Below, piece by piece: positions 1,176-52,449 of a stretch of DNA of 64,000 nt. This DNA comes from Prostheceraeus crozeri (lineage: Eukaryota > Platyhelminthes > Polycladida > Euryleptidae): assembly GCA_907163375.1 (NCBI GenBank), contig CAJQUW010000891.1, forward strand, positions 248,001 to 312,000. The letters are read 5' to 3'. The position numbers and the translations under genes were made by a program. Below the pieces are notes generated by a model. The model searched no databases. It was not told the origin of the DNA and worked only from the letters and a program-made list of their open reading frames with translations. The stretch's first letter is position 1; every line of letters begins with the position of its first letter.

Positions 1176-1189
1176 AATAAAACTTTATT
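1176..1189. terminator. Overlapping bidirectional poly(A) signals
   Basis: AATAAA on the plus strand at 1176-1181 serves the TBP-like gene ending at 1056. AATAAA on the minus strand (TTTATT at 1184-1189) sits on the stop of the protease gene ending at 1188. This compact convergent arrangement is typical of small DNA virus genomes. Confidence 0.6.
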
Positions 1190-32047: not shown

Positions 32048-33210
32048 AGTAGTAAGCAAACGGCAAACACTCGACCGTCGCGCCCCCCCCCTCTGGAACG
32101 GCAGAGTGTCGTGGTCGGCCGCCGTGGTGCTTCGAGTCTGACTCCCCCCCCCTCTGGAACGACAGAGTGTCGTGGTGTGCCGGACAGGTGGGTCCACGTT
32201 CACAAACTGTTCGCTGACTCCCCCCCTCTGGAACGACAGTGTCGTGGTGGACTTGGGCGACCGCCAGGAATAGTCTTGAGGCTATAGTGTGTGATGTTTT
32301 TCGTGCAATCTGCTGAATGTTGGGTTGTAAAATGGGCTGTTTCGAGTGGAAGGAGTGGTCGGATGAGAAAACGGAGGCCGGATTCGGATTCAGCGTGAAA
32401 TTCTGCATCGGTATGGTGAATTTGAACGCCATCGGAGAGAAAAAATTTTCGCTGACGTCCCCCCCCCCTCTTGACAGCTCGCTTCGATTTTGGCTTCCAG
32501 TGGACGGATTTTGTCGTGCCATAGCTCGTTTGAAAGCTAAGAGTGAGACAAATTCACTGAAAGAATCGGCTTGTTCATATCTGTCTTCGTTTAGATGTGA
32601 GACGCCATTTAAGATTTTGGGAGATTGGCGAAAAACGACAGAGTTAGAATTTGGGACGTTTTGGGCTGTAGCTTCAAAACGAAGCATCGGATGGGAAAAC
32701 GGATTTCAGATTTGGAATCAGCATGAAATTCTGCATCTGTATGGTGAGTTTCAAGTCAATCGGAGAGAAAAATTTTCAACATTTTTCGAAAAAACGACAG
32801 AGTTAGAATTTGGGACGTTTTGGTGTGTAGCGCCCAAACGAAGCATCGGATGAGAAAACGGAGGCCAGATTCGGATTCAGCGTGAAATTCTGCATCGGTA
32901 TGGTGAATTTGAACGCCATCGGAGAGAAAAAATTTTCGCTGACGTCCCCCCCCCTCTTGACAGCTCGCTTCGATTTTGGCTTCCAGTGGACGGATTTAGT
33001 CGTGCCATAGCTCGTTTGAAAGCTAAGAGTGAGACAAATTCACTGAAAGAATCGGCTTGTTCATATCTGTCTTCGTTTAGATGTGAGACGCCATTTAAGA
33101 TTTTGGGAGATTGGCGAAAAACGACAGAGTTAGAATTTGGGACGTTTTGGGCTGTAGCTTCAAAACGAAGCATCGGATTGGAAAACGGATTTCAGATTTG
33201 GAATCAGCTT
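32048..33210. repeat. Left terminal inverted repeat region of element B
   Basis: Matches the right end (52450-53038) in inverted orientation. It is longer than its partner because of internal duplications: a 486-bp unit starting at 32471 recurs partially from 32957. Five C8-C10 tracts occur (about 32083, 32146, 32220, 32459, 32946). Three of them are followed by CTCTGGAACG(A/G)CAG-type words containing the hairpin CGACA-(GAG)-TGTCG. Open frames here are repeat artefacts, not genes. Confidence 0.9.
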
Positions 33211-33261
33211 GATGTTATTTTCCAATGAGGATCATCATCCAATGAGAATCAAGCATTTCTA

Positions 33262-33269
33262 TATAAATA
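33262..33269 (+). promoter_or_regulatory. TATA box of the left early unit
   Basis: TATAAATA about 100 bases before the split ATG at 33365, just inside the terminal repeat. Confidence 0.6.
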
Positions 33270-33364
33270 GCGAGCCTTCCACAGTGAGAATCATTCCATC
33301 GTTGAATCACACGAGTGACGGACGCATATTTTCTCTCTCTATTCTATTCTATTATCCAACTAAA

Positions 33365-34136
33365 ATGGTAAGTCGCTACTTTCCTCCCTCTCCTCCCTTG
33401 AACGTAAACTTAATACAATCTTTTTCATTTTCAGGCATCTACTCCATCTGCTACACTAGTAGGACAAAATGGCGGTCAAACGTTACAAGGTTCGCTACGG
33501 TCAGATCATCTACAACTGAGGCCAGTGGAAGAAACAACCAAGGTACATAATCCTACACCGCTACAGCGTAAATTTAAACAAGTCTTGCGTTATGACGATC
33601 ATAGCGTAGTACTGCAAACGGGAATGCTCCCTTCCACGGATGTCAAGATAATGCGCAATCAGTATGGGGACTACATACTGATCCCCGTGAGTCCGTACAT
33701 TCGCCACCAACTTGATATTATTGAGGAGTACGTGACATTAAATATGGACATTCCTACTCCTCTTGCTCAAGAGTGGAAGGCTAGAGATGACAAGGATACT
33801 CCCTATAGAAAGATTTGGGATGGTAATCACATTTGCCTACCGGTATCACATTGGTGTACTTACTATAAGGAGGGAGATCATTCAATACCCATCAGATGTG
33901 ATGAGCTCGGAGAAGGTACTTGGGATATCCTTTTCAAAGTGAATGGGCTATATTATGGTCGACACAAGGATAATAAAATAGCCTCTCTCTCCATGCATAT
34001 GGAATCCATCCTATATATTCCAAAACCACCCAACGTGGATGACGTAATTGATCAAATCCTTAACAGCAGTGGTACGAAGCGCAAGTCGGAGAAGAATGCT
34101 GCCTCAAAACGCAAATCAAAGAAGGAGAATTACTAG
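33365..34136 (+). CDS. Spliced conserved unknown protein, possible OB-fold (element B)
   Basis: The start codon ATG (33365-33367) is followed at once by GTAAGT; a 67-nt intron ends TTTTCAG at 33434; exon 2 (33435-34136) reads ASTPSATLVGQNGG in frame through 234 codons. It is homologous to 7770-8516 of element A (VNGLYYGRHKDNKIASLSM block; basic tail KRKSKKENY). Function unknown; a single-stranded DNA-binding or regulatory role is only a guess. The intron directly after ATG is repeated at the other end of the element (49029). Confidence 0.7.
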
Positions 34137-34170
34137 TCCTTTCCTAACTCTACCCTATGACAATTCGCTT

Positions 34171-34296
34171 ATGTGCTTTGAGTGTCGTAGACGTGGTCTT
34201 ATTAGATACATTTTACTTCTTCGTTGCCATCATATCATTTGTGTATTTTGTCGTGAAAAGCATCGATGTAATTCTTCATTTTGTAATATGTTATAG
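34171..34296 (+). CDS. Very small RING-like protein
   Basis: 41 residues from ATG at 34171: CFEC, then LLLRCHHIICVFCREKHRC and SSFC. This gives C-x2-C ... C-x-H-x3-C-x2-C ... C, most of a RING, with the last pair reduced. It overlaps nothing else and lies between the first gene and the exonuclease. Compare the full IAP-like RING of element A. Could be a relic. Confidence 0.45.
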   Translation: MCFECRRRGLIRYILLLRCHHIICVFCREKHRCNSSFCNML

Positions 34297-34329
34297 AACG
34301 TTTCCTTAGATGTGTAATTTCCGTTTTAG

Positions 34330-34878
34330 GCTTCTATCATCATTTTTATGGATTGTGAGGGTGAACCTGTACAGGAGCTCAGTGCTATTGCTATGAACAA
34401 TTGGACATATCAGAATGTTAGTGTCTATCATCAACATGCCAACTGCGATCCCAATGTTGATCAATGGGCGAGAAAACACATTCATGGACTTAATCTGAAA
34501 TATTTGCAAGACTATGGCTTTTCTTGTGAGAGTGCTCTTCTTATTGACTTTAAACGATGGTTAGCTGCTTTCAATGTTATACGCATCTTTTGTAATAATC
34601 CTGCTAAGGAGAGGAAAGTATTTCCCAATCTAATCATTGATGATATTTTGCTCCCGCCTTGGGATAGTAGAGTGAATCAACATTATCATGAAGTCACGAA
34701 ACGTTTTAAGGATTTGTGTGTTCCTATTTTGTCTATTCGTTGTGGTAGCTACGTTCATAACCAATGCTTCTTTCCTCCTTACCTCAACACTGCCAAAGTC
34801 CTGTATGGTTATCATTGCTCGCTGTATGATAGTTACCACCTGTATCTATTTTATCTCTTTCAAACCATTGATTTATAA
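34330..34878 (+). CDS. DEDDh-type 3'-5' exonuclease-like protein
   Basis: From the acceptor-like TTTTAG at 34329 the frame reads ASIIIFMDCEGEP; an internal ATG is at 34348. Motif I is D-x-E in MDCEGEPVQELSAI. WARKHIHGL lies near residue 55, like the HGI segment of epsilon-type exonucleases. Motif III is YGYHCSLYDSYHLYLF, where His and Asp have the H-x4-D spacing of DEDDh enzymes. An intermediate Asp is expected in the IIDDILL part. The role would be trimming or proofreading during replication, or RNA decay. No copy is seen in the visible part of element A. Confidence 0.6.
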   Translation, partial: ASIIIFMDCEGEPVQELSAIAMNNWTYQNVSVYHQHANCDPNVDQWARKHIHGLNLKYLQDYGFSCESALLIDFKRWLAAFNVIRIFCNNPAKERKVFPNLIIDDILLPPWDSRVNQHYHEVTKRFKDLCVPILSIRCGSYVHNQCFFPPYLNTAKVLYGYHCSLYDSYHLYLFYLFQTIDL

Positions 34879-34965
34879 TGCATGCTTGTTACCGTTATTC
34901 AATAAATGTTACTATGAGAAGAGTTGTTGTTTTCATGCAATGGATGGGTTAGATAAAGGGCGATC

Positions 34966-35376
34966 ATGTCTTTCTCAAACGACTGCGGAACATTACATTT
35001 TCATAGGCAAAGTTTAAAAGGAGCTGTTCAAGATTATGTGATAAATTTTCATGAAGATGAGACCGACATCGAAGTAGTGGTCGATGATGCTAGCACTCTA
35101 TTTCTAGAGTTAATGAATACATTCTCTGATAGCATTGTCATGGCGCGATTAGTTGCGAAAATTAAGTTTAGTCATTTTGGAAAGGAAGAGGTGGAAAGTC
35201 GCTCTTTCCATTTTGCTTCTTATTCAATGGAAGTGGTAGATCACCCCGAAGAATTTTTTAAAAGACATATGATAAAAATTGCTGAACGTCTTAACGCATT
35301 TAACCATCATGGTAGCAGTCTAGTGATTGAAGCGATTTCAGATATTCACATTCAAATTTCCATAAAGAAAAATTGA
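34966..35376 (+). CDS. Conserved unknown protein of element B
   Basis: 136 residues from ATG at 34966. Alpha/beta pattern with LFLELMNTFSDSIVMARLVAKI and a C-terminal helix-strand block (FFKRHMIKIAERLNAFNHH ... LVIEAISDIHIQI). The same architecture occurs in the N-terminal part of Polinton-type DNA polymerases (compare the first ~100 residues at 48490-48200), so it may be a free-standing version of that domain. Low certainty. Confidence 0.5.
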   Translation: MSFSNDCGTLHFHRQSLKGAVQDYVINFHEDETDIEVVVDDASTLFLELMNTFSDSIVMARLVAKIKFSHFGKEEVESRSFHFASYSMEVVDHPEEFFKRHMIKIAERLNAFNHHGSSLVIEAISDIHIQISIKKN

Positions 35377-35378
35377 AA

Positions 35379-35697
35379 ATGCAGTGGTACTTGATTGTAG
35401 CACAACTGGTTTTCGAGCTATGTCTGCTCACTCTCGAAGTATATTCCTTCTGTACATGCGTCTATTATTTAGAAAAGGCTAGCAAATTCATATCTTCAAA
35501 AAGACTTGCTATAGACATCAGTAACGGTGAAACTATGTGTTGCGATGTATGTAAGCGAAAGGATGGAAATGAAAAGCTTCAAGAGATGTAAGCACGCTTT
35601 TTGTCAACGCTGTTTCATACGTAATTGCATTCAACTTTGCCAATGTAACCACTGTGATATTGCTCATTTCGAGTGTCACTTATGTCGCAATAGTTAG
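35379..35697 (+). pseudogene. Membrane-anchored RING gene split by a frameshift
   Basis: The first frame (35379-35591) has an N-terminal hydrophobic segment (YLIVAQLVFELCLL) and the first RING half CCDVCKRKDGNEK. The second half, RCKHAFCQRCF and later CNHC / CHLC, continues in the +1 frame from about 35555 to the stop at 35697. A one-base indel in the AAAA run near 35567 would explain it. Either a broken viral E3 ligase or a frameshifted one. Confidence 0.55.
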
Positions 35698-35748
35698 TAC
35701 CTATGCAAATGTGGTAAAGATAGGTTTTAGCAAAGACTAACACGGAAA

Positions 35749-36099
35749 ATGGCGAAACGTAAAAGTCAAAAGTCTTCAAAGTTTTCTTCAGCCATTCAAG
35801 CTCTCCGACGAATGAAAGCAAATCAGCGATACAATGCTATACGACATGCTAACGATAAATTCATTTGTGAAATTATTTCTCATGTGAGGAAGTTGAGGAC
35901 GAAGAAATTAGCACCAAAACAACGAAAGTTACTTAAGCGATATGCTACGAAATTGCGTTTCATCTTCAATCCTAAAGTCACCCTTCAAAGAAAGAGGAAA
36001 ACTCTAACACAAAAGGGCGGTTTCCTTTCAGCAATACTTCCAATGATAGCTCCTGCCGTGGGTAACCTATTGGATAATATCTTTGGCTCTAAGCGTTAA
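35749..36099 (+). CDS. Small basic protein with QKGGFL C-terminus, element B
   Basis: 116 residues. MAKRKSQKSSKFSS start, FICEIISHVRKLR helix, KQRKLLKRYATKLRFI, then LTQKGGFLSAILPMIAPAVG. Counterpart of 8666-9058 in element A. The basic-helix then GGFL-hydrophobic tail pattern is widespread in this element family. A virion core or membrane-lytic peptide precursor cut after GG is an inference. Confidence 0.65.
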   Translation: MAKRKSQKSSKFSSAIQALRRMKANQRYNAIRHANDKFICEIISHVRKLRTKKLAPKQRKLLKRYATKLRFIFNPKVTLQRKRKTLTQKGGFLSAILPMIAPAVGNLLDNIFGSKR

Positions 36100-36130
36100 T
36101 TATGCAAATGTTGAATCTCAAAGTAATAAA

Positions 36131-36745
36131 ATGGATTTCAGACTTCAATGTGATAAAGTTCTGACTGTATCAGGTCCATCTCATGCAGGTAAAACTGTTT
36201 TCACGCTGAATTTATTGGATAAAAGAAGGGAGTTGTTTAAGGAACCTATCAATCGAGTGATTTGGTGTTATGGTATTTATCAACCGTCGCTGTTTCAGGA
36301 ATTGCAAAGTCGCAACTTTATTCGACATGAAGGAATTATTCCAGTGGATAAACTTCAGTCTAATGATGTTGTATTGGACGATTTATTAAAAGAAAGTAAG
36401 AATTCAAAAGATGTTACAGATATGTTCACTCGCGCAGCACATCATAAAAGGTGCTTTATCATCTATATCACACAACATTTGTTTCCTGATGGAAAAGAAG
36501 CTCGTACACGAAACCTGAATACACACTATTATGCTATTTTCAAGAATCCGCGAGATAAAAGTCAATTTGAAATTTTAGCGCGACAAGTTGCACCCAGAGG
36601 ATCAAAAGCCTTAATTGAAATTTTTCAAGCAGCTACTGAAAAACCATACGGTTACTTATTCATTGACTTTACGCAAGAGTGTCCGGAAGAATTTAGATTT
36701 CGAAGTGATATTTTGAAAACTCCCATGATTATCTACAAACTATGA
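36131..36745 (+). CDS. FtsK/A32-type genome-packaging ATPase, element B
   Basis: 204 residues from ATG at 36131. Walker A GPSHAGKTVF (residues 15-24), Walker B DVVLDDLL, sensor-like FIIYITQH. The next gene starts inside its stop codon (ATGA at 36742). Homologous to 7026-7661 over the full length. Confidence 0.9.
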   Translation: MDFRLQCDKVLTVSGPSHAGKTVFTLNLLDKRRELFKEPINRVIWCYGIYQPSLFQELQSRNFIRHEGIIPVDKLQSNDVVLDDLLKESKNSKDVTDMFTRAAHHKRCFIIYITQHLFPDGKEARTRNLNTHYYAIFKNPRDKSQFEILARQVAPRGSKALIEIFQAATEKPYGYLFIDFTQECPEEFRFRSDILKTPMIIYKL

Positions 36746-37434
36746 GTTCTTATTCTCGCATGATTGTTATTCCTCAGGATGAATATGTACAATTGACTGC
36801 CATGCAGCAAGTAAAGCAACCTCTTGCAAATCAAATGTATAGGAAAGAAATAGATTATCAGCAAAATGTTCACATCAAAGATCCACATCATGCTGTATTA
36901 TTACAATCGGAAACTGTTGAGCAATTGAAAAACTTGAAGAATAAGATGCGTGACTCTGTATCGACTGCTACACCTTTAGCATCTCGCGCACATGCCATAT
37001 CTCTTTTCAACAGTATTGAACCCCATCTCAATGTAAATGATAGAGGAGAAATCATTACAGATGAAAATAAAGTGATTGATGCTTCACGTTATGAAGACTT
37101 GATTCAGTATGCGACACGTAGAAAGCGCCGTCAGGGCTATGTTCCACCTGGTTGGACATACTTTCTTAGACTATTGAAAAAGCATAATGTACCAAAATTT
37201 GCTTTGAATAATGAGACATTGAAAGAACTTGATTCAACAGTGGCTACTGCTCCAATGCTTCAGACGATGAAAATGCCAACAAATTGGTTTAAGGCGTCAC
37301 CTGCTACATCCCCTCCCACACTCACTAAGCAAACAAGAGGAAGAACTCGACGTAGATCTACATCGCCACTAAAACTAGTAAAAGGAAAACGTAAAACAGC
37401 TCCTCCCAGGAAATACATGTTCTCAGACTATTAA
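36742..37434 (+). CDS. Conserved unknown protein of F54H12-type elements, element B
   Basis: 230 residues, homologous to 6336-6986: MIVIPQDEYVQLT, IKDPHH, TPLASRAHAISLF, VNDRGEIIT, DLIQYATRRKRR and PPGWTYFLRLLKKHNVP are shared. The C-terminus is Arg/Lys-rich. Overlaps the ATPase stop by four bases. No enzyme motif. Confidence 0.7.
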   Translation: MSSYSRMIVIPQDEYVQLTAMQQVKQPLANQMYRKEIDYQQNVHIKDPHHAVLLQSETVEQLKNLKNKMRDSVSTATPLASRAHAISLFNSIEPHLNVNDRGEIITDENKVIDASRYEDLIQYATRRKRRQGYVPPGWTYFLRLLKKHNVPKFALNNETLKELDSTVATAPMLQTMKMPTNWFKASPATSPPTLTKQTRGRTRRRSTSPLKLVKGKRKTAPPRKYMFSDY

Positions 37435-37435
37435 T

Positions 37436-37651
37436 ATGAAGCAGATGTGTTGCTTGCCATGTAATGAGACGCCAGAGGTGAATGTCGTTGTCACTTGCAC
37501 TTGCTGCGCCAGCTCTCACAATGAAACCCCTAAGCAATGTGAACACGATCGCAAAACCGCTAAAGCTAAATGCTGCAGTTGTTGTAAATGTAGAAAGGCA
37601 AGAAAACAAAAAGATGAGAAGGAGGAAAAAGAGTCAGTCGTCATCGACTGA
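37436..37651 (+). CDS. Small Cys-rich protein overlapping the integrase start, element B
   Basis: 71 residues with 14 cysteines: MCCLPC, CTCCASSH, KCCSCCKCRK, then a charged tail. It overlaps the integrase ATG (37614) by ~38 bases in another frame. The positional twin in element A (5979-6305) also begins with CC-clusters, so this is a conserved small gene. Lipid attachment or zinc binding is possible; function unknown. Confidence 0.55.
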   Translation: MKQMCCLPCNETPEVNVVVTCTCCASSHNETPKQCEHDRKTAKAKCCSCCKCRKARKQKDEKEEKESVVID

Positions 37652-38702
37652 ACGTTTGAAGTCAATCTATTATGATGTAAAACATCCGGCAGGATTTGCA
37701 TCTATCAAGAAATTATCAAAAGCGAGTGGTCTTCCACAATCACAAGTGAAACGATGGTTAAAGGGTCAGGCTACCTATACACTCCACAAACAAGCGAAGA
37801 AGAAGTACCGCACCCGCCATTATATTGTTCATGACATCGATGAACAGTGGCAAGCAGATTTGTGCGATGTCGCCTCCATTTCAAAACATAACTCGGGCAA
37901 TAATTTTATTTTAACCGTCATTGATATTTTCTCGCGTTATGCGTGGGCTCAACCTTTAAAAACTAAAGAAGGGAAAGGAGTAGCAAAAGCATTCCAAACA
38001 ATTTTTCGAGAAGGTCGCATTCCAAAAAGAATTCAGAGTGATCAAGGAAAAGAGTTTGAAAATCAGCATGTGAGAAGATTATTTGAGAGGCATGACATTG
38101 AGTTGTTTAGTGTAGAGAGTGCTTATAAAGCTGCACTCGTTGAACGTTTTAATCGCACATTAAAAAATCGCTTGTGGCGACATTTTACTGCCAACTTGAC
38201 ACAAAATTGGACAAAGGTTCTACAAGATACACTCCATGCCTACAATCACTCTATCCATCGTTCTATTGGACTCAGACCAGTAGATGTAAATGCTGACAAT
38301 GTAGATAAAGTGCGCGAATCATTCCAACGTAAACGCACTCATGTGAAAAGTGATGTGAAAATTGGTGATAAAGTTCGTATCTCAAAAGTGAAAAGTGTTT
38401 TTGCTAAAGGGTACCTTCCGAATTGGACAGAGGAGGTATTTACAGTATCAAGGATTAATCAAAAAGACTCTCCGACCACCTACAAGTTGAAAGATTACGA
38501 TAATGAGGAAATTGAGGGTAGCTTTTACCGCGATGAGATTGAGGGAGTCACTGAAAGTGAAACATATTTGGTAGAGAAAATCATTCGATGTAAAAAACGG
38601 CAAGGTGAAGAATGGTGTCTTGTTAAATGGACTGGTTATCCTTCAAGTATGTACTCTTGGATGCGTCGTGCCGACATCTTTCATCTAAGTGATCGACAGT
38701 GA
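37614..38702 (+). CDS. Retrovirus-like integrase with chromodomain, element B
   Basis: 362 residues from ATG at 37614, the same length as the element A enzyme. Catalytic core: WQADL Asp, IQSDQGKEFEN Asp, ALVERFNRT Glu, all present. C-terminal DNA-binding part IGDKVRISKVKSVFAKGYLP, then chromodomain YLVEKIIRCKKRQGEEWCLV with WTGYPSSMYSW. The frame is intact and flanking ends carry a perfect 6-bp duplication, consistent with its activity at the time of insertion. Confidence 0.93.
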   Translation: MRRRKKSQSSSTERLKSIYYDVKHPAGFASIKKLSKASGLPQSQVKRWLKGQATYTLHKQAKKKYRTRHYIVHDIDEQWQADLCDVASISKHNSGNNFILTVIDIFSRYAWAQPLKTKEGKGVAKAFQTIFREGRIPKRIQSDQGKEFENQHVRRLFERHDIELFSVESAYKAALVERFNRTLKNRLWRHFTANLTQNWTKVLQDTLHAYNHSIHRSIGLRPVDVNADNVDKVRESFQRKRTHVKSDVKIGDKVRISKVKSVFAKGYLPNWTEEVFTVSRINQKDSPTTYKLKDYDNEEIEGSFYRDEIEGVTESETYLVEKIIRCKKRQGEEWCLVKWTGYPSSMYSWMRRADIFHLSDRQ

Positions 38703-38731
38703 TTCATGCAGTTCGACAGTAACTTCTAATC

Positions 38732-40012
38732 ATGGAGTGTAAAACTTCCGGTTTTTGTTTGTTCGATCAACAAGCCATACAGACAGATATTCTTAGTTCA
38801 AGTATTGTAGATTATCATCCTCGAACAGCTGAGAATGCTGGCCCCATTGAATTTGTTATTCCTGGTGGTAGTGATGACTACATAGATTTGAGTTATGCGA
38901 TGCTTGATTTGAGGTTTAGAATTCAGCAAGCAGATGGAACTGCTATTGACGATGCACATAAAGTTGGACTGAACAATTTACCATTGACTACATTACTTCG
39001 CGATGTTTCTCTAACGATTGGAGAGCAGCAGGTGGAAGGTGGTCAAAGCGATTATCCCTATAAATCATATTTCAATCATGTATCACAGTTTCATGCAGCA
39101 GCACAAAAAAGTCATATGGAAGCCATGGGATGGTACAGAGATGAAGCAGGAAAATTTGATGTTGAAACAAACAGTGGCTTTGTAAAGCGATCTGCTATGA
39201 TTAAAGATAGTAGAGTATGTCAGCTATATGGTCCGCTGAATTTAGACTTCTTTAGACAGTCAAAGTTTTTACTCTGTAATACCAGCATGCGACTCAAGCT
39301 GACATTGAATAAGCCTGAATTTGCGCTGAATGCATTTGCTAAAGTTGACAATTTTAGAATTCATGTGGAAGATATTTCACTTTACATTCGTCGAGTAGTA
39401 CCGAATCCAAGTGTCATTAGAGGACATGCTGAAGGTCTTAACCGTCAAAATGCCATTTACCCCGTTCAGCATACAAAGCTTCTCACCTTTACAATTCCGA
39501 AAGATCAAAAGAGTTTCATGAAAGATGGCCTCTTTCCATCGGAAGCACCGAAGCTCCTCATGGTGGCAATGATTGAAAATGATGCATTTAATGGTAATAT
39601 AAAGAAGAATCCTTTCAATTTTAAACACAATCAGTTAAGTGAAATTGCTTTACGTGTAAATGGTGTGAGTCATCCTGGTCCACCCTACAAACCAGATTTT
39701 GCTTCGGATCAATTTATGCGCAGTTATGTTGATTTTATGGATGTCTTTGGCTTTTACAATACGGATGACACCAACGGACTGACTATGAAAGAGTTTAAGA
39801 GTGGATATACTATTTATGCATTTGATTTGACTGCTGACAGCAATATTAGTGCACCCTATCGTCAAGCGGACGTGCCTCATAATATTCGTTTGGATTTGAC
39901 GTTCAAAAGAACACTACCTGAGACGATCAATGTATTAATTTATGCAGTCTTCGATTCAAATATTGAAATTACAAAGTATCGTGACGTGATTCTTCAGTAT
40001 AATCGTTATTGA
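38732..40012 (+). CDS. Major capsid protein-like (F54H12.2 family), element B
   Basis: 426 residues, collinear with 1646-2929. Shared marks are QTDILSSSIVDYHP, IEFVIPGGSDDYIDLSYAML, VEGGQSDYPYKSY, FYNTDDTNGLTMKE and the C-terminal LIYAVFDSNIEITKYRDV. Lies 30 bases after the integrase and overlaps the protease frame. No stops. The capsid role is inferred from family and context. Confidence 0.72.
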   Translation: MECKTSGFCLFDQQAIQTDILSSSIVDYHPRTAENAGPIEFVIPGGSDDYIDLSYAMLDLRFRIQQADGTAIDDAHKVGLNNLPLTTLLRDVSLTIGEQQVEGGQSDYPYKSYFNHVSQFHAAAQKSHMEAMGWYRDEAGKFDVETNSGFVKRSAMIKDSRVCQLYGPLNLDFFRQSKFLLCNTSMRLKLTLNKPEFALNAFAKVDNFRIHVEDISLYIRRVVPNPSVIRGHAEGLNRQNAIYPVQHTKLLTFTIPKDQKSFMKDGLFPSEAPKLLMVAMIENDAFNGNIKKNPFNFKHNQLSEIALRVNGVSHPGPPYKPDFASDQFMRSYVDFMDVFGFYNTDDTNGLTMKEFKSGYTIYAFDLTADSNISAPYRQADVPHNIRLDLTFKRTLPETINVLIYAVFDSNIEITKYRDVILQYNRY

Positions 40013-40470
40013 GTTGGTTGACTGCTGACGATATTAAGACTAAAGTGCAGCGTAATGCAGACGAAGCGACGTTGAAAGCTTTCGATAATGTCTATTCACT
40101 CGATACCTTACCACCTGCAGTAAATCACTATACCATCTTTATTGTGCTAAACACTCATTCGCAGAATTTAGGCGGTGAGCATTGGAAAGCGATCTTTATT
40201 GGAGAAGACCGACGTGGTGAACTATTTGACTCTCTTGCTCAACCTCCAAATATACCAACACAGCAGTGGTTGAGAAAACATACGCGTCAATATCAGCGAA
40301 ATGAACGCATACTACAACATCCACTTTCATCAACGTGTGGTGCTTTTGTACTGTACTTCATCTTAAAACGTTTACATGTATCTCGATTTGCATCTATTAT
40401 TCAAAACTTTTCATGTAATCCATCCTCTAATGAAAAAATGATTTGTAAGTTCTATCATGATTTGAAATAA
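40009..40470 (+). CDS. Adenain-like cysteine protease, element B
   Basis: About 153 residues. Active-site pattern in order: GGEHWK (His58), ELFDSLA (Asp74), LQHPLSSTCGAFVLYF (Gln103, Cys110). There is no ATG before the active site; the frame opens with TTG overlapping the capsid stop (TTGA at 40009-40012), which suggests reinitiation at a non-ATG codon or joining to the capsid transcript. The enzyme would mature virion proteins at Gly-Gly-type sites. Intact, unlike the element A copy. Confidence 0.85.
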   Translation: MSWLTADDIKTKVQRNADEATLKAFDNVYSLDTLPPAVNHYTIFIVLNTHSQNLGGEHWKAIFIGEDRRGELFDSLAQPPNIPTQQWLRKHTRQYQRNERILQHPLSSTCGAFVLYFILKRLHVSRFASIIQNFSCNPSSNEKMICKFYHDLK

Positions 40471-40496
40471 GAACATCATGTTGGAAAAATTGTTTT

Positions 40497-41042
40497 TTAT
40501 TTTACAATCCGCTGGGTACGTACATACTCAATGAGATAGTCTAGGATCACATTTTCTTGTACATGAGATGTTAGTCCAGTAATGATCACTTTACTATTAT
40601 GAAAGATTGCCACATGCACAGGTAACCAACAACTAATGAGAGCTGCAGGAAAAAGTTCGGGTTCATAACACAAATTGTAACTGCTGGTACGAATCTTCAA
40701 AAATGATACACTTTCACTCAATTGAGTAGAGATCACCATATTGTCCACAGTCAGATTCGACATCACACACCTCTCCCTCTTCCATATCCGACGTAGTAGT
40801 CTCTGTAGCTCTAAGCGCATTGACTGCGCCGATGAATGAGAAAGGGCGCCGAGAATCTGTACAGTCCCATTTGGGAAGAGTTGAAGATTCCGTGAATTGT
40901 TCATCTTCACCACTAACATTTGAGGTCGGCCCGGGTAATACTTGCTGTTTGGAAGCTGTTGGTGTAATGTTGTGAGATCGATTTTGGTGTAGAGTCTGAA
41001 GCGACGGAGAATGTTGACGATGGTGTAGCGATGGCGCTTCAT
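40497..41042 (-). CDS. TBP-like (TATA-binding protein) protein, element B
   Basis: 181 residues from ATG at 41042. Repeat 1: KIDLTTLHQQLPNSKYYPGR, MLVVKM, then LQLFPNGTVQILG and a long helix. Repeat 2: CYEPELFPAALISCW, VAIFHNSKVIITG and a final helix. Spacing and the FPELFP-like and F-x-N-x-K-V-x-x-TG signatures match the TBP core; the YEPELFPA word is nearly identical to cellular TBP. Similarity to 505-1056 of element A covers the full length although sequences have diverged, so the gene is old in this lineage. Confidence 0.85.
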   Translation of the reverse strand: MKRHRYTIVNILRRFRLYTKIDLTTLHQQLPNSKYYPGRPQMLVVKMNNSRNLQLFPNGTVQILGALSHSSAQSMRLELQRLLRRIWKRERCVMSNLTVDNMVISTQLSESVSFLKIRTSSYNLCYEPELFPAALISCWLPVHVAIFHNSKVIITGLTSHVQENVILDYLIEYVRTQRIVK

Positions 41043-41364
41043 GATGAAAGAATGAGTAAATTGAGCGATGCACCTTCCTTTTATACTTTTCCCAACTACC
41101 TTGATGAAATGTGAAGTTAGTATGAAGTTGGGAATGATAGAGTTGAATTCGCCGATTGTTGACGCGCAGCCAGATGCGATTTCCAATACGTGAATGTCTT
41201 TTCATATAGAAGTATTTCAAGTCCTTCATGATATGATGTAGAGATTGAAAATGACGATAAGATAAAGCAAACTCTCTTCTCACATTTCCAGTTGAATCTT
41301 TGAAATAGACGTTTCGATCATGATCCGTTTCAATACGTTGTAGGGAATCTAATTTCCAACTCAT
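40714..41364 (-). CDS. PC4-like protein 1, element B (3' part overlaps TBP-like gene)
   Basis: The first ~107 codons (to 41042) hold the PC4-like block: MSWKLDSLQRIETDHDRNVY, RREFALSYRHFQSL, then IWLRVNNRRIQLYHS and a FHQGSWEKYKRKVH helix. Downstream the frame stays open for another 109 codons while overlapping the TBP-like gene, which is in the +1 frame. The same relative frame occurs in element A. Whether the overlapping part is translated, or a +1 shift fuses PC4 to TBP, cannot be decided here. Confidence 0.55.
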   Translation of the reverse strand: MSWKLDSLQRIETDHDRNVYFKDSTGNVRREFALSYRHFQSLHHIMKDLKYFYMKRHSRIGNRIWLRVNNRRIQLYHSQLHTNFTFHQGSWEKYKRKVHRSIYSFFHHEAPSLHHRQHSPSLQTLHQNRSHNITPTASKQQVLPGPTSNVSGEDEQFTESSTLPKWDCTDSRRPFSFIGAVNALRATETTTSDMEEGEVCDVESDCGQYGDLYSIE

Positions 41365-41386
41365 GATGTGTGGTAGTCATGTCTGA

Positions 41387-41743
41387 TTAAGATTTGCATA
41401 GTAGGGCGATGAACTCACGACGAATAAATGTCATGATGGAGCGATGTATATATCTTCTATACTTCTCCCAATTGTATTTGCGAAATGAGAAACAGTTTGC
41501 GGAATGAGAATGGTAGATTTGAATTTCATTTCTGTAATGTTGAAGCCAAACTTGATCACCCAAGGAGATGAATCTTAATGTTTCAAAATATTCCAAATCC
41601 CTCATGATATCATTGAGGTTGACAAATTGTCGCCATGTTAATGTAATTCCTCTTGATGTATGACCATAAGAATTTTTGAAATGTACGTTTCCATCACGAT
41701 CAACTCTGATATATTGTAGAGAGTCCAAAATCCAAGTCTTCAT
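41387..41743 (-). CDS. PC4-like protein 2, element B
   Basis: 118 residues from ATG at 41743. Paralogue of the preceding gene: MKTWILDSLQYIRVDRDGNV, RGITLTWRQFVNLNDIMRDL, QVWLQHYRNEIQIYHS, FSFRKYNWEKYRRYIHRSI. It starts only ~35 bases from the oppositely directed structural gene at 41779, so both probably share a promoter region. Confidence 0.55.
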   Translation of the reverse strand: MKTWILDSLQYIRVDRDGNVHFKNSYGHTSRGITLTWRQFVNLNDIMRDLEYFETLRFISLGDQVWLQHYRNEIQIYHSHSANCFSFRKYNWEKYRRYIHRSIMTFIRREFIALLCKS

Positions 41744-41778
41744 GATGTTATGCAAAGTTGCAGATCAGCAATATAAAA

Positions 41779-43176
41779 ATGTCGTTTTATCATATTTTGC
41801 TTAGCAATGCGGCTACAAAGAGATTTACTAGTAATCGAGCCGCACTCTTTTCTACTCCCATTGATCATGCACAACAGCTAAATGGAAATTGGGAAGTGGG
41901 TGTCACTCAACTTGTTTATAGCAACTGTGTCTATACTTTTGATCATGAGGTGATGACTATTAATATGAGACGTACAGCTGCTTATCAATGTGAAAAGGGG
42001 TGCCGAGTATACATTCCACAGTGGCCAAAGAAAGATCTCTTATCATGTAAAAAGTTTATATATGATTTCTTGAATAAAGCGTGTAAACATATTGCCCAAT
42101 TTACTCCGCACAATGATGATTATACTTATGTACATCATGTAGTTGAGAAAGATTGGATTGTTGGTTTAAGTCCAAGTTTAAGAAATGATTTAGGCTACCT
42201 CGCTAGCGCCTTAACAAGCTATGATAATTTTAACGTTAATTACCACATAAGTGGTCATAAACAGTTAATATATCGAGAGGAAGCTTATTATGTAGATCTT
42301 ATTCCAAGAAATGAGAAGACGTTGGTGAAGAAGATTGTGATTAAGCCAAGAAAGACAAACATGACTCCTGAAACATTATTGAAGAAATTTAATTATCTCC
42401 TTCGAGTTGATGGTAAACAAGTGGCAACATTGACTTATATCAAATCATCTAATCATATTGCAATAAGTAAATTAAATGATGATGATCTATTATTAGTTTG
42501 TTCAAAAGATTTTCATCAGTTCTTACGACATCGTTCTGCAGCTGTTCATGGAAAATTTGATATGCAACATTTACCATGTGAAAGGTCAAATCAATTTGAT
42601 ACAGAATGGACCGTATCTTTATACAGAAAGTGTGTAGAGCCTTTAGGTGGTATCTTACATGAAACAAGAGTGTTGATGCCTCGCATTATTACTTCGGTTA
42701 AATTGGTTGTAGATTATTTAAATGAAGTGATTAATGAGCAACATATTTCATTTTCTGAAAAAGAAGGTGTTTTGTCTCTCACTATAAGTGGAAAAGGTAT
42801 TGAACTAATTATTGATAAAACTCTAATGGACATTTTGGGTTTTGATCAAAATATCTTTAAAAGTGGTACTGTAACCAAAGCTAGCGCAGACATGTCGCTA
42901 TCGCGTCGTATTAACTATTTTCAGATATATTCCAATACTGGTGAAGATGTACGTGTGGGAGATGTTGAAGCTCCATTGCTAGCAATGATACCATACCAGC
43001 CAAAAAGCTGCAGTATTTTATCTGAGCATACTTTCAAGAAAGTGCATTATACAAAGCTGAAATCAAACTACATCCCACAAATTGATATTGCCATTTATGA
43101 CGATGCTGGTGCGTTGATTCCTTTTCATAAAGATGCTGTGACAAGTATCACACTCCATTTCCGAATGAAGAGTTAA
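41779..43176 (+). CDS. Penton/fibre-like structural protein 1, element B
   Basis: 465 residues from ATG at 41779 (the frame opens at a TTG, 41758). Starts SFYHILLSNAATKRFTSNRA, then QQLNGNWEVGVTQLVY. The C-terminus VGDVEAPLLAMIPY ... QIDIAIYDDAGALIPF is shared with 3466-5043 of element A. Overlaps the next, paralogous gene at TAATG. Structural role inferred. Confidence 0.6.
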   Translation: MSFYHILLSNAATKRFTSNRAALFSTPIDHAQQLNGNWEVGVTQLVYSNCVYTFDHEVMTINMRRTAAYQCEKGCRVYIPQWPKKDLLSCKKFIYDFLNKACKHIAQFTPHNDDYTYVHHVVEKDWIVGLSPSLRNDLGYLASALTSYDNFNVNYHISGHKQLIYREEAYYVDLIPRNEKTLVKKIVIKPRKTNMTPETLLKKFNYLLRVDGKQVATLTYIKSSNHIAISKLNDDDLLLVCSKDFHQFLRHRSAAVHGKFDMQHLPCERSNQFDTEWTVSLYRKCVEPLGGILHETRVLMPRIITSVKLVVDYLNEVINEQHISFSEKEGVLSLTISGKGIELIIDKTLMDILGFDQNIFKSGTVTKASADMSLSRRINYFQIYSNTGEDVRVGDVEAPLLAMIPYQPKSCSILSEHTFKKVHYTKLKSNYIPQIDIAIYDDAGALIPFHKDAVTSITLHFRMKS

Positions 43177-43214
43177 TGCAAAAGTATGCTAATATATTTT
43201 CCAATGTGAATAAT

Positions 43215-44735
43215 ATGGAAAGTGAAAATAAGGACTCGTTTCTAATCTACTTGCCCAGTAATGCTTCTATGAATAAATTTCCCAAAAATAAACCATCAGA
43301 CTATCGAGTAGAATTAAATCGGCCACTGCATTTAGAAGGTGAATGGGAGGTTGGCGTTTCTAGTATTTGCTATGATAGCAATATTCAGAATGTGAATGAT
43401 TTGGAAGAAATGATATTGACTCCTCGCACCCATGATGGAATAACGATGAATAATGCATTTCAGTTCCCATACAATTTAACATCAGATGGAAAGTGGAACT
43501 ATGAATGGATTCAGATAAAATCAGATTCTTATGAACCATTTGGGAATGAGAAAATTATTAAGGCATTCAACAGTGGTAATACTTCCATCATGAAGAATAA
43601 AAATCAGAAAGCTTATGAGTTTACTATCTATCATTGGAGTGGGAGACAGTTCCTCCGCTTTCATTCTTTTACTAAAGGTCTTACGCTGAGGTTGGATAAT
43701 GAATTCTATCCACATCTTGGTTTTGGTCATGGACTACATCTAACATCAATTGCTACTGCAAATGTTAAAAAAATTTATTCAAATCGAATCAACAAATTTC
43801 ATTATAGATTTAAAATATTTGATGAAGATGTTGTAGAATGCGAAGAACGCATCATTTTGAAAAAGCGTGGTGTTCAACCTTTATCACTTATTGAGTTAGT
43901 AAAACGATGGAATGAGACTGTGGGTAAGAAGTATGGAGAGAAAATTATGGCGGACAAAAATAAATTGGTTATTCAGAAATATAATGACAAACTTACAGTT
44001 TATTTCTCTCCAACCTTGCGTCATTTTGTAAGACATTATACACCTATTATTGGAAGCGGTGTGGTGTATGGTTCTCATGAATATCACACTAAAGCTGATT
44101 CAGTTAATGATGAATGGTGGGTGGACATCTATGGTGATCGCATCAAGAAAATTTACCAGTCTTATGAAGAATCTAAAGTTGCTATCAATATAATGCCGCG
44201 TCTATATCATACAGTTGAAAGCTTCATTCATGTAGTAAATCCTTATATACAACAGAAGTTGAAGCATGTGATGAAAAGTAAATATGATGTAAAGACACAC
44301 CACATTTCGTTTTCAATTGAAAATCAACGCGTTGTTCTGAAACTGGGTGATGACATTCAATGTCAATTGAGTAAAAATTTGAAGAAACTCTTTGGTTTTT
44401 CAATGCTACAAACTGTGTTTACTGCTGCGCATACGATTGGTATAGAAACACCAATGACACTTGATAAACATGAACAGCACCTTTACATTCAAAGTGATTT
44501 GATTCTACCTATTTCTGTTGGTGAGAAAAAAGAATACATTTTACGTGATTTCATTCATGATAAAGACGCTTCATATGGAATAGTCGAGAAGATGTTTGAA
44601 TCTATTTTCTATCATCCCGTCATCAAACAAATGATACCCTCTATTGCTATCAAAATTACCAATGGTTTACAAGAGTGCATCCACGTGAAAGATACTAAAT
44701 CCCTCATAACGTTAGTGTTTCGGAAAACAAAGTGA
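43215..44735 (+). CDS. Penton/fibre-like structural protein 2, element B
   Basis: 506 residues from ATG at 43215. N-terminus MESENKDSFLIYLPSNASMN then LHLEGEWEVGVSSICY, the family signature. Paralogue of the upstream gene and of 3466-5043. The mid-region is diverged. The transcript probably ends at AATAAA at 44831. The two copies may form hetero-oligomers or serve as penton and fibre. Confidence 0.6.
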   Translation: MESENKDSFLIYLPSNASMNKFPKNKPSDYRVELNRPLHLEGEWEVGVSSICYDSNIQNVNDLEEMILTPRTHDGITMNNAFQFPYNLTSDGKWNYEWIQIKSDSYEPFGNEKIIKAFNSGNTSIMKNKNQKAYEFTIYHWSGRQFLRFHSFTKGLTLRLDNEFYPHLGFGHGLHLTSIATANVKKIYSNRINKFHYRFKIFDEDVVECEERIILKKRGVQPLSLIELVKRWNETVGKKYGEKIMADKNKLVIQKYNDKLTVYFSPTLRHFVRHYTPIIGSGVVYGSHEYHTKADSVNDEWWVDIYGDRIKKIYQSYEESKVAINIMPRLYHTVESFIHVVNPYIQQKLKHVMKSKYDVKTHHISFSIENQRVVLKLGDDIQCQLSKNLKKLFGFSMLQTVFTAAHTIGIETPMTLDKHEQHLYIQSDLILPISVGEKKEYILRDFIHDKDASYGIVEKMFESIFYHPVIKQMIPSIAIKITNGLQECIHVKDTKSLITLVFRKTK

Positions 44736-45040
44736 AGTCTTTATACAACATTTATTGAAATATGTACATGAATGTGAAGCAATAGACTTTATACAACATC
44801 CACTGAAAATATATACATGAGCGCACTTCAATAAACATTGCTATATACAAAAAGTCTTTTTACTTCGTGAAGGGTGGAAATATACAGGGATAGGAAAAAT
44901 GTCTTTCAGTGGAAAAGTCATCACATGGGGAATGTACAGATGTGGACACATATTCACAAGGAAAAAACAATCTCATGCGATACATAAAACAACAATGTTT
45001 ATCTACAGAAATCAACATCAAAATACTAAGTTAAGGATGA
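44736..45040. other. 3' flanks of convergent units
   Basis: Contains a tandem UTR duplication of CTTTATACAACAT(T/C)(T/C)A...TGAAA.TAT.TACATGA (44739 and 44788) and AATAAA at 44831. No gene. Confidence 0.45.
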
Positions 45041-48000
45041 TTATGCTAAGACGTCTCCTGAATGTTGTAGTGTGAGTTTAATTCTTTTGGGTGGTGGTAT
45101 GTTTGTGTCAGGATGTCCATGTGGAAGAGATATATTGTGTTCTAACCAGCACCTCTTATCCTCCCATGCTGAAAGCGCCCGTTTCCTAAAAGTATGAGTT
45201 TTGATCTTATGCGACTTAGATTTTAAGATTGTCATATTGACAAACGTAATATTTTTATTTCAATAGGCTTTCCTGAAATTCTTATGTTTCATGTTAGAGA
45301 CCAATGATCTTGATATGCCTTTAGCACGCTTAATACTATCGTCGCTATCCTTTAATTTCATACTGTACATTTTTGGACGGAGGAGAATCATTTCATCTAT
45401 TTCCTTCCCTGCTGTCTCATCCTTAAAGCAGCCAAGTTTTGCCTTATTTTTGATGGAGTAGAGTGGGTGATCAGTAGGATAATTTGATGTATCAAAATAT
45501 CTTTCTAAAGATTTTCCTACTTCATTGAAATTTAAATCTTTTTGAGTGGTAATACCTAAGAAGAAACTATCTGTATCACCACCCAACAAACGAACCTCTT
45601 TTACGAGAGGACATGGTTTTAGTATTTTATAAAAGAGTTGGTACATTTCAAGCTTAGAGTAATCTAGTACAGCTTGGCCAATATAGATGGGCTTGCACAA
45701 CTCAACTTCAGATTTTATCATTTTAACACCTACAAGGTCCTCATCGATAATGTCTGTATCGATGAATAGAGGTGATGAGACCAATTTCTTAAATTTTGTA
45801 ACATCATTGACTAGTTTATAGTTTACACGTTTTCTAACATCCTCCATCGTCTTACCAAATAGACTATTATTCTTATACTTATAAAAATCTTTTTCAAAAT
45901 TATTTTGGGCTAGTGCACGTTTCTGGCTGTTGCTATCAATATATGGTTTGAGGAAGGCTTTCTGTCTAAATTTAATAATGCGGTGAACTCTTTTTAAAAT
46001 CATACCCATTTCTAAATAAAATTTTAAGATGCTAAAGTGGACTAGATAGTTTTCCTTATCATACTGGGAGAGTAAAAGTTTGCGGCAAGGCTTATAGTCG
46101 GGTTGACCGCATGATTCTAAATCTTTATGAAATTGTTTCATAAAGTCGGAAAACATATCTTTGGTCACTTCACCTGATTCGGGTGCGAGTGGAAAATCTA
46201 CGGTTTTATGTTTAATATTATTTGGATAGATTAGATCTATTTCAAAATAATATCCCCAATCACCTTCATCTGGGATTGCTAGTATGTTAGAAGGGTTGGA
46301 GAGATGCTGAATTTCACTATCATCTAACCAGCTAAACTCAGAGTGAGGGAGTGGTTTGGATATTGAACTACCATATAAATTATTTTGGTCATAATACTTA
46401 AGATGAGTCTGATCATCGCCTACTAATTTTGATTTTAACCTATGTTTATTTACAAATGTGAGACCACCGCGAATTCCTCGCTCAAATAAATTATACATCT
46501 CTGGATCTTGTAAGAGATGAATGGTCTCACCAGTCATTTTAAAAGCAGACTTAAATGACATGGCTGGCAGACTGACAAAGTGGACGGGATCTAACTTATC
46601 TTCTTCTAATGCCACTCGTCGAAACTCCTGAAATACATCAGCCAGCAAAAATACATCTAACTCAAGGTAGGCAATCATATATTCAGCAAATGTATGGCAG
46701 TCAAATTTTATCCATGCATCTTGTGCATGATCATAATCTTCGGTCTTACATTCTGCACCGCTCAAATCATTTTTAAATTTATCTATGGGCGGAAGAGAAG
46801 TCTCGCCGAGTTTACTAATCGCATCAAAATATGCATATGGAAAGACTCCTTTCCGTGTGATGACTTCATCGGTTAGATTTGGATATTGTTTCTTAAGATT
46901 TTGTGTTAGTGGAAGAGACTTTAGATTTTGTACGAGAGAGGCCAGTGATGCAGTCATAAATTGGTAGGAATCTAAAAATGTTATATCAAAATAGACCGTC
47001 TTATTTTCTTTAGTTTTATCGACAGGTACTTTTGCTGTCATGGCCATAAACTTCTCTCTCGTTTGTGCTATTACATCAAGCTTCCACTCTTTCATTTGAC
47101 CTAAACCTCCTTTTATTATCATATGGCTGTCGTAGCCCTTGAAATTATGGAAAATGACGGGTAATGTACGCCGTTTCATCCTAAGTGAAAAATTGCATTT
47201 TGAACATAGTACGTTTCTAAATTTACCAGTGATGTGATCATGGACGCGCACTTTCTTAATCTTATCATCATCAAATGTTTTCCTACATTTGAGGCAAACG
47301 TTGCAACTATCAAATTTTGCTTGATCATCTGCTGTCATATGCAATGATCTGCGATAGAGTTCACCATCATACTTTTGTTGAAATTTTACAGCCTATTCGA
47401 GGAATTGTAGGAATTGGTAAATACAATCCTCACCTTGCCAGACGTGCATTTTATTTTTTCTATTTTGGAAATGGTCATGCCATACTTCATAGCAGGAAAT
47501 GGCTGCTGCTCGATGGGTGTTATCATCGATATAGCATTCGATGTCGGCATAGATGACACCAAGAGGACTTAGTTCATCGCCATTCTCTCTATATGAAAAC
47601 TCTTTATTTTTGGGCATGCGCTCCATTTGTAGTTTACCTCGCTTACACCATTCGTAATGAGTTTCAAATCTATTTTTACTCCTAAAGTTCCGAATGCATC
47701 TGTCACAGTAATAAATCTCTGAGCTAGAATTTCTTAGGTGGTGGTATAAGCGAGAAATTTTGGGAATACCGCAGTAGTGCCATTCCTCACTATCATCCTG
47801 TCTTACTAACAAAAGGTTAACAACGTGATCATAACAACTCGAACGCGAGTTGTAACGGACGCCCTTCAATCCCTTTTCCCAAACATGGAGAACTATTTTG
47901 ATGTTGTTCAATTTTTCAAATTTTTCTATATCTTTAATTTTCATATCTTCACTATTGCAGTCATCAAACTTTAATTCATTCTCCCACTGTTGATACTTAC

Positions 48001-48523
48001 TCTTACGGTATCGGCTATACTGTACATCATTATAGTGGAGAATGGAGAGGACGGCATACTTAAAACATTGCGATTCGCAATCTACAGAAATGACTGCTGC
48101 TTTATTTCTTAAATTTTTCGGAAGTTTAAAGGAGCCTCGTCCAGAGTAGTTCTCTAATAAAGGGATTTTAATCATGGCGGTCTCAATACCATCAAAAACG
48201 AGTCCACTATCACGCTCGTTAAATTTATCTATATTTAATTTTAACCCTTGGATATGAAAATTTATCCAAGACTCACAGTCTACAACTTCGGTTGCAGGAG
48301 AGGAGGGTATGTGAAACTCCAACCTCTCTACTATTTGACCAGTATGGTGATCGATTTTTACATATTTTATTTTGAGATAGATGAGCGCCTTCATTCTAAA
48401 ATTGACTAAATTGTTGAAGAGCGCACCAATCAAAGATGAATTTTGATGAAACCATTCTTCAAAGTCAGTAATGGTTTCTGAGGATTCCATCCGGTAGTTC
48501 CTCACTAAATTATTTATTGACAC
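45041..48523 (-). pseudogene. Protein-primed family B DNA polymerase with two in-frame stops
   Basis: One continuous reading frame of ~1,160 codons (likely first ATG 48490) broken by TAG at 47395-47393 and TGA at 45262-45260, with no frame change. Order: N-terminal alpha/beta part with VISVDCESQCFKYAVLSIL; two CxxC-type motifs; Exo I GVIYADIECY; Exo II FHNFKGYDSH; polymerase motif A YYDQNNLYGS; motif B KNNSLFGKTMEDV; motif C GGDTDSFFLG; then, after the TGA, the conserved tail RKRALSAWEDKR. All catalytic motifs are kept. It would replicate the element from a terminal protein. The stops make full-length product unlikely without readthrough. Confidence 0.9.
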
Positions 48524-49029
48524 TTCAGAGAGTCGGATAGAGGAGGTGCTGTTAGTATAACTATCGTCACTGTGTGTGTATGTCGAAGTCTATGTGAAGA
48601 TAGTTCAAAATGTGACTCAAAAGACTGAATGCATAAATCGCAAGAAAAGGAGACATCGTTAACAGAATCATCCCCACCTTCGGAGATTGATGCTGACTTA
48701 GGTCTACAAACACCTCGCTTGATGTGTCGGATGAGATCACGCTTCCTCGTGAAGATGTGTCCACAGTCAGCACATTCCCGATCGTTGCATTCCCGCGACA
48801 ATGTTGATATGGACTCGCTCGAGATGGGACTGGTATCACCTGAAAGAGAAATCATTCTATCATCTGTGTTCAAGTCTCAGTGTATTGTTACAACCTACCT
48901 TGACTCAACAACTCTAAACTTTCCTCGAGAAGGGAGGGTGTTGGTGATGAAGTTGATGCCTGAAATTGAGGAAAATGCTATTAGCCACACGTTTGAGGGA
49001 GATGAGTGAAGAAATTTTCAACTTACCAT
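48514..49029 (-). CDS. Spliced C2H2 zinc-finger protein leading into the polymerase
   Basis: Exon 1 is ATG (49029-49027) followed by GTAAGT. A 67-nt intron ends TTTCAG; exon 2 (48959-48899) reads ASTSSPTPSLLEESLELLSQ. A second intron (GTAGGT...TTTCAG) leads to exon 3 from 48839 in matching phase. Exon 3 has two fingers: CADCGHIFTRKRDLIRHIKRG and CDLCIQSFESHFELSSHR. The frame ends at 48514, overlapping the polymerase frame (-1). Polinton polymerases often carry such fingers at their N-terminus, so this may be its first part separated by a frameshift or a missed intron. Confidence 0.65.
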
Positions 49030-49183
49030 TTCAATGAAATCAAGTTTAAGGTTGATACTTCAACAAGATAGAGACTTCACTCAAATTTGGAATTCACTTG
49101 TACGCCTCAAATATAGAATTCGCCAGAGAACACTTCACTTATACGTCTCAAAGACAGAGTGAAATGACACGAATGTCACTTTG

Positions 49184-49192
49184 CATATATAC
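49184..49192 (-). promoter_or_regulatory. TATA-like box of the right leftward unit
   Basis: GTATATATG on the minus strand, about 160 bases upstream of the ATG|GTAAGT exon at 49029. A divergent plus-strand gene starts at 49289. Confidence 0.4.
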
Positions 49193-49288
49193 TTTCATAT
49201 TCATCATTCATTGGCTGTTCATTCTGATTGGTTGCTTGTTGATACTTAAGAATTAGAAAACATTTCAAAGTCATTATTCACAGTCAAC

Positions 49289-51687: not shown

Positions 51688-51739
51688 CTGTAGAAGGAAA
51701 GATAAAATAGAATTACTGACAAGTAACATTGACAATCAT

Positions 51740-52440: not shown

Positions 52441-52449
52441 CCCATCATC

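Follow-up and report, generated by a model that had tools for sequence, protein, structure and literature searches.

Two Polinton-like elements in the genome of the polyclad flatworm Prostheceraeus crozeri encode proteins that are two-repeat TATA-binding proteins (TBPs) by profile and, for one of the two, also by predicted fold. The elements, here called A and B, lie in a window of 64,000 nucleotides (the whole stretch of DNA that was analysed; contig CAJQUW010000891.1, positions 248,001 to 312,000). From the residues kept in these proteins and their relatives we infer that the element-specific TBP rather probably works at the elements' own promoters, where it would bind DNA and TFIIB and recruit host RNA polymerase II through the latter. 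How animal Polintons switch on their genes is, to our knowledge, an open question.

TBP genes in two Polinton-like elements

The two genes are as follows.

487..1056, forward strand: TBP-like gene of element A (TBP-A), 189 codons
40497..41042, reverse strand: TBP-like gene of element B (TBP-B), 181 codons, product starting MKRHRYTIVN, with two TBP repeats

Pfam matched PF00352 over two stretches in each protein, above the curated cut-off and with high significance (E=1e-18 for TBP-B, 4.6e-14 for TBP-A). This bears out the original prediction of a TBP homologue at 40497..41042, made from the sequence together with a proposed profile search, and the saddle motifs that it quoted are present in both proteins. 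The companion gene that it placed at 505..1056 of element A is also there, with a different start: the frame begins at 487, and 505 lies slightly inside it. A phmmer search of the PDB with TBP-B returned 35 rows (best E=3.5e-10), of which all but one are named as TBPs or TBP fusions, and the exception, ECU04_1440, aligns as a TBP does; with TBP-A, TBPs ranked on top (best E=1e-4) and unrelated rows appeared from E 0.37 on. Structure prediction, proposed as a further check, was applied to TBP-B, and the AF2 model is confident and has the TBP saddle fold; Foldseek with this model gave 44 matches at E<=0.001, which were TBPs. TBP-A and TBP-B are 32% identical over 170 amino acids and, as had been suggested, strongly diverged but collinear, the TBP gene in both elements being convergent with, and running towards, a protease gene and a capsid candidate. 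The other features of the two elements are listed below.

32048..53038: element B, 20,991 bp, with inverted terminal repeats beginning AGTAGTAAGCAAACGG (longer form AGTAGTAAGC)
32042-32047 and 53039-53044: target duplication GGAGTT (6 bp) flanking element B
36083..36745, forward strand: ATPase candidate of element B, 52% identical to 7026-7661; AAA/A32 matches weak, below cut-off
37482..38702, forward strand: integrase (rve) with chromodomain, element B; PF00665 E=5.7e-11, PF00385 E=1.9e-5, the latter just under cut-off
38732..40012, forward strand: candidate major capsid protein of element B, 426 amino acids, 43% identical to 1646-2929
40009..40470, forward strand: putative cysteine protease of C48/adenain (Ulp1) type, element B, convergent with TBP-B; PF02902 E=8.4e-4, 19.7 bits against a cut-off of 20.7
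45260..48523, reverse strand: polymerase region of element B in two frames, 45260-47344 (with an endonuclease VII domain, PF02945 E=1.8e-5) and 47393-48523
1188..1469, reverse strand: protease counterpart in element A, a 93-amino-acid frame convergent with TBP-A, 28% identical over 88 amino acids to 40009-40470 (E=1.7e-8)
1646..2929, reverse strand: candidate major capsid protein of element A, 43% identical to that of element B
5084..6235, reverse strand: integrase with chromodomain, element A; PF00665 E=1e-12, PF00385 E=1.4e-9
7026..7661, reverse strand: ATPase candidate of element A; AAA_14 E=7.9e-5, under cut-off

Element B has the AG-starting inverted terminal repeats, with AGTAGTAAGCAAACGG at both ends, and the 6-bp duplication that mark a Polinton/Maverick, and these together with the chromodomain integrase and the putative protease uphold the Polinton-like nature assigned to it. 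It shares terminal repeats, duplication and integrase, as well as protease, ATPase and polymerase candidates, with Polintons/Mavericks and adintoviruses, whereas TBP is absent from the descriptions of these that we found. The capsid candidate of element B had no significant match in Pfam, PHROGs or the PDB, and the polymerase region shows family-B polymerase motifs by eye, spread over two frames, with no polymerase profile or PDB match. The integrases of the two elements are 53% identical. Element A sits at the left edge of the window and is cut by it. A Pfam scan of 30 ORFs of the two elements (element A as cut by the window edge) found no RNA polymerase subunit and no TFIIB; the element TBP would therefore need a host polymerase.

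Several further features were observed in the window. A tandem array with a 134-bp unit (22678-23781, seven copies in register) lies between elements A and B, and a RING-finger ORF (9847-10353, reverse strand, PF13920 E=3.5e-10) beside the element A genes has no counterpart among the compared ORFs of element B. A small forward-strand ORF of element B (34966-35376) is 29% identical over 125 amino acids to the N-terminal part of 47393-48523 on the reverse strand, which suggests that the N-terminal domain of the polymerase-region ORF has been duplicated. Element B also carries two large paralogous ORFs on the forward strand (41758-43176 and 43176-44735, 23% identical), for which element A has a single counterpart (3466-5070).

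Copies, selection and relatives

We mined the 2.05-Gb host assembly for further copies. Of 10,982 first-look candidates, 150 were scored in a Pfam TBP search and every one of them matched; the 30 loci fetched from this search comprised four host TBP/TRF2-like exons and 26 element copies. The host's own TBP is canonical (loci L001 and L003), and L002 is what we take to be its TRF2-like gene; such a gene set speaks for a bilaterian host. Counts with the element proteins as queries are minimum values, and because they cover the best-ranked copies they overstate the intact fraction. TBP-B found at least 150 copies (150 scored of 11,862 candidates, 30 of them fetched), full length without exception, 98-100% identical and none with a stop; with TBP-A (150 scored of 10,521) at least 102 copies matched the 189 residues throughout at 100% identity, and no stop was present in 149 of the 150. 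A 47-base stretch of TBP-A recurred exactly only 20 times, so most of the 102 same-protein copies must differ there by silent changes. Over ORF1 (the gene upstream of TBP, described below) and TBP, 13 copies of family A (that of the window plus 12 fetched ones, of which 10 belong to the 100% class) differed by 0.53% on average, with 6 of 78 pairs identical; the difference among 42 B copies was 1.5%. Families A and B seem to have been amplified recently.

Two more families were distinguished by hit patterns: C (L006, L008, L014, L018, L019, L020, L022, L023 and L028, the last 44% identical to B) and D (L004, L005, L007 and L010, with L005 41% identical to B), although L010 may form a separate family. 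Homologues of the capsid candidate, the protease, the 41758-43176 type of ORF or the polymerase region were found in the flanks of about 1.5 kb at 54 of the 56 element loci fetched with Pfam and with TBP-B and at none of the four host TBP/TRF2 loci; the remaining two element loci, L018 and L020, have the ORF1 neighbour. Beside TBP in family C, seven of the nine loci (L006, L008, L014, L019, L022, L023, L028) have the polymerase region rather than the protease; the ORF1-TBP pair thus remains unbroken although the gene order around it varies.

Comparison of TBP-B with B', a subfamily 80% identical to it, gave dN 0.08-0.10, dS 0.32-0.40 and dN/dS 0.2-0.3 in all five comparisons; the copies were picked by protein match, which pushes such values downwards, but with a distant query. 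Among 42 B copies, pN/pS was 0.24 for TBP (biased low, the copies being picked by protein match), 0.21 for the ORF1 domain and 2.1 for the ORF1 frame in the overlap with TBP. By dN/dS the element TBP is under purifying selection, and the proposal that the gene was long kept within the lineage agrees with this, with the four or more diverged families that a single genome contains and with about 100 relatives elsewhere.

Those relatives came from searches of 5.8 billion proteins, with two sets of 64 and 82 matches that amount to 111 different proteins, some of them fragments. Their sources (ena, lgn, jgi, mgnify) are taken to be mostly metagenomes; one of the 111 is a Phytophthora TBP, and another, P0003, has no source listed and appears to be the window's own. 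The phylogeny with host TBP and TRF2-like rows that had been called for separated elements A-D and 28 chosen relatives from the remaining rows by a branch with 99/98 support, in a tree of 38 rows with few cellular rows, one very long row and an arbitrary midpoint root; on the other side are the host TBP, the TRF2-like protein, the Phytophthora TBP, a haloarchaeal virus TBP and two proteins, P0062 and P0063. The element TBPs, in this tree of few cellular rows, do not group within animal TBP/TRF2. TRF2/TLF is likewise a divergent TBP paralogue and is present in the same host (L002), but the host TRF2-like protein groups with host TBP, apart from the element genes.

P0062 and P0063 represent a second TBP lineage on another branch than the element TBPs. 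The ORF1 on P0112, a JGI contig of 10,296 bases, and the ORF1 of element B are 99% identical, which places the host of element B or its elements in another data set as well. A third clade of relatives, of P0059 type, was not found in the host genome, where the best 5 of 150 matches were the 80% B subfamily. Scans of IMG/VR with TBP, capsid-candidate and ATPase alignments, run as exact peptide patterns and thus weak evidence of absence, found no relative, and the best match in a phage collection was only the TBP of Haloarcula virus HJTV-2 (E=0.2, two records).

Conserved residues, an overlapping gene and a predicted promoter

Residues were compared in an alignment of 68 family members with the Phytophthora TBP as reference; the 68 are a 43-row set (41 of the 64 proteins of the first relative search and the window's two) less P0045, plus 26 relatives of at least 160 amino acids from the second search. 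Functional labels are those that we presume from TBP structural work. The minor-groove Asn are kept (N58 and N149, each in 64/68), as are three of the four DNA-kinking Phe (F104, F179 and F195, each in 68/68). At the fourth position, the first kinking Phe of repeat 1, all 68 members have Pro (P88, in a GRPxM motif) where the reference has Phe, so that only three of the four kinking Phe expected of a TBP are conserved in 68/68, and the concave-face Val of repeat 1 is Gln (Q110) in 68/68 where the reference has Val. These two changes and an identity of about 25% to host TBP set the element proteins apart from cellular TBP (the TFIID subunit, PF00352). P0062 also has Gln at the Val position. The TFIIB-contact residues of the C-terminal stirrup are largely retained (E175 67/68, E177 67/68, L178 61/68), and T203, the Thr before the last conserved Gly, is invariant (68/68), where the reference has Cys and host TBP has Thr. 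As we read the alignment, the surfaces that would contact TFIIA and further regulators of TBP appear to diverge, so that pre-initiation assembly may differ.

Upstream of TBP, and overlapping it in another frame, is the gene that we call ORF1.

40714..41364, reverse strand: ORF1a of element B, with a predicted two-repeat PUR/Whirly-like domain and a tail overlapping TBP-B in another frame
41387..41743, reverse strand: ORF1b of element B, a paralogue of ORF1a, 44% identical over 112 amino acids
63..686, forward strand: ORF1 of element A, a distant counterpart of ORF1a and ORF1b (E=0.001 and 7e-4), overlapping TBP-A in the same relative frame as in B
41077..41085, reverse strand: TATAAAAGG, lying within ORF1a and predicted to be the TATA box of the TBP gene
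41051..41055, reverse strand: initiator-like TCATT, 30 nt downstream as counted from the first T of the box, with a candidate start A at 41053

The overlap of ORF1 with TBP in element A is unlikely by chance (open-run P=0.0014). The predicted fold of ORF1 has two beta4-alpha repeats packed as in PUR/Whirly proteins, and we predict from the model that ORF1 has the fold of a PUR-alpha/Whirly-type single-strand-binding regulator; this membership is by predicted fold, with no sequence-profile match to PUR-alpha, Whirly or MRP1-MRP2. A PC4-like identity was also considered: it had no profile support, and the predicted fold points to PUR/Whirly; a PC4 chain is absent from the listed structural rows, which excludes nothing. 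Fusion of ORF1 to TBP, prompted by P0045 (275 amino acids), was set aside for families A-D, whose tested copies keep two different frames, both open; a single frame joining the two does occur in individual copies, for example L012, L016 and L076.

In element B, TATAAAAGG starts 43 nt ahead of the TBP ATG and is followed at a fixed distance by TCATT. Across all element loci fetched for families B, B', C and D, the exact arrangement of TATAAAAGG, 21 nt and TCATT occurs in 51 of 61 (41/43 in B, 2/5 in B', 6/9 in C and 2/4 in D). Nine of the ten misses differ in the box or in TCATT by one or two altered bases or by a one-base insertion, and L010 is boxless; in B', three of the five copies are altered in the box or TCATT. 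The box occurs twice in the whole window, both strands together, and one of the two is that at the TBP gene. Family A has no canonical TATA at the corresponding place, and over 27 element genes the enrichment of upstream TATA boxes is weak (4 genes, two on the reverse strand, against 1.2 expected, P=0.03). Because the box encodes Tyr-Lys-Arg and TCATT a conserved Ser of ORF1, the conservation is partly explained by the protein; the codons TAT AAA AGG together are expected at about 6% by element codon usage, and the same trio in three families at 2e-4 if the families were independent, which strictly they are not. The TBP gene of families B, C and D is probably read from a TATA-initiator promoter within the overlapping upstream gene.

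How the element TBP may act

The suggestion made at the outset, that the elements recruit or redirect RNA polymerase II, fits the conserved residues and the embedded TATA. In the mechanism that we favour, the element TBP would bind and kink TATA-like element promoters, and its conserved YEPELFP stirrup would bind host TFIIB and thereby bring host RNA polymerase II to the element genes, while the changes on the DNA surface of repeat 1 (Phe to Pro, Val to Gln) would give it a promoter preference unlike that of host TBP. In families B, C and D, host TBP could be the first to drive the TBP gene itself, perhaps followed by the gene's own product. The ORF1 protein, with its predicted PUR-alpha/Whirly fold, might be a partner of TBP at promoters that have opened, or during replication.

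We weighed this against three other explanations. Retention of the TFIIB-contact motif (67/68, 67/68 and 61/68) beside divergence of the other surfaces, and frames free of stops in 150 of 150 scored TBP-B and 149 of 150 scored TBP-A copies, would also be expected of a protein that occupies host promoters or titrates TFIIB and so damps host transcription instead of serving element promoters. We regard such a role as unlikely, since a pure titrator would not need all the DNA-surface residues that are kept (three Phe, both Asn), and the TBP gene itself carries a promoter-grade TATA in most B and C and some D copies. Another use of the fold, in replication, packaging or integration through bending at terminal repeats or origins and not in transcription, could account for the neighbouring gene with its predicted binding of single-stranded nucleic acid and for a repeat-1 DNA surface that is changed in every aligned member; the stirrup for TFIIB, however, is selectively conserved and has no obvious use in replication, and we consider this reading improbable to much the same degree. 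That a host TBP gene was recently captured and has no function in the element is very improbable: TBP and TRF2-like genes are at hand as donors, but the element proteins are only about 25% identical to host TBP and lie with 28 relatives beyond the 99/98 branch, and the gene is common to at least four diverged families and under purifying selection.

A TBP that redirects the host polymerase has already been proposed for an algal virus: Chrysochromulina parva virus CpV-BQ1 encodes a TBP and two TFIIBs, and its authors, in the available text of PMC12085832, propose that they act with host RNA polymerase. That virus and others like it are large algal viruses, and CpV-BQ1 brings TFIIBs, whereas the carriers here are animal mobile elements with no TFIIB among the scanned ORFs. 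Megavirus chilensis has RNA polymerase subunits and a TFIIB of its own besides TBP (PMC11464507, in excerpt), none of which is among the scanned element ORFs. African swine fever virus (ASFV) B263R and some protist TBPs, according to a portion of PMC5825884, also have three kinking Phe, as do the element TBPs. Structure matches in BFVD included the algal-virus protein EsV-1-53 and showed TBP folds in several giant viruses. Part of PMC10132985 lists TBP among the core functions of mirusviruses, in 59% of them, and in 0% of Nucleocytoviricota by that paper's clustering, in contrast to the giant-virus TBP folds in BFVD; mirusviruses thus share TBP with the elements but are large plankton viruses of another group, not Polintons. 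In endogenous viral elements of a green alga TBPs are sporadic, and no double jelly-roll capsid gene was identified there (PMC10675990, in extract).

The original prediction knew of no TBP in animal Polintons, and a full-text literature search, with subscription papers and most preprints outside its reach, found none described, no paper combining Polinton and Whirly and none that uses the term F54H12.2. In the sections at hand, TBP terms were absent from PMC11071308, PMC10120064 and PMC4642659 and confined to the references in PMC12220804, the TATA match in PMC11640650 was a primer sequence, and the TBPs in PMC11464507 and PMC12085832 belonged to large protist viruses. New here, besides the animal mobile element as carrier, are the residue pattern over 68 members, the overlapping predicted PUR/Whirly gene and the predicted TATA-TCATT inside ORF1.

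Taken further, and tentatively, these features might form a compact initiation module in animal Polintons, in which a retuned TBP and a PUR/Whirly-like single-strand-binding partner, encoded by overlapping genes with an embedded, self-controlling TATA, divert host TFIIB and RNA polymerase II. The overlapping gene pair with its predicted internal promoter is an unusual compression of the genome, and a promoter code of another kind is predicted from the changes that all aligned members share on the DNA surface. With at least 102 protein-identical copies and several diverged families in one genome, the element TBP is a testable second TBP that can be compared with the host's. If the initiation module is real, an animal mobile element without a polymerase of its own for transcription would have an orthogonal pre-initiation pathway.
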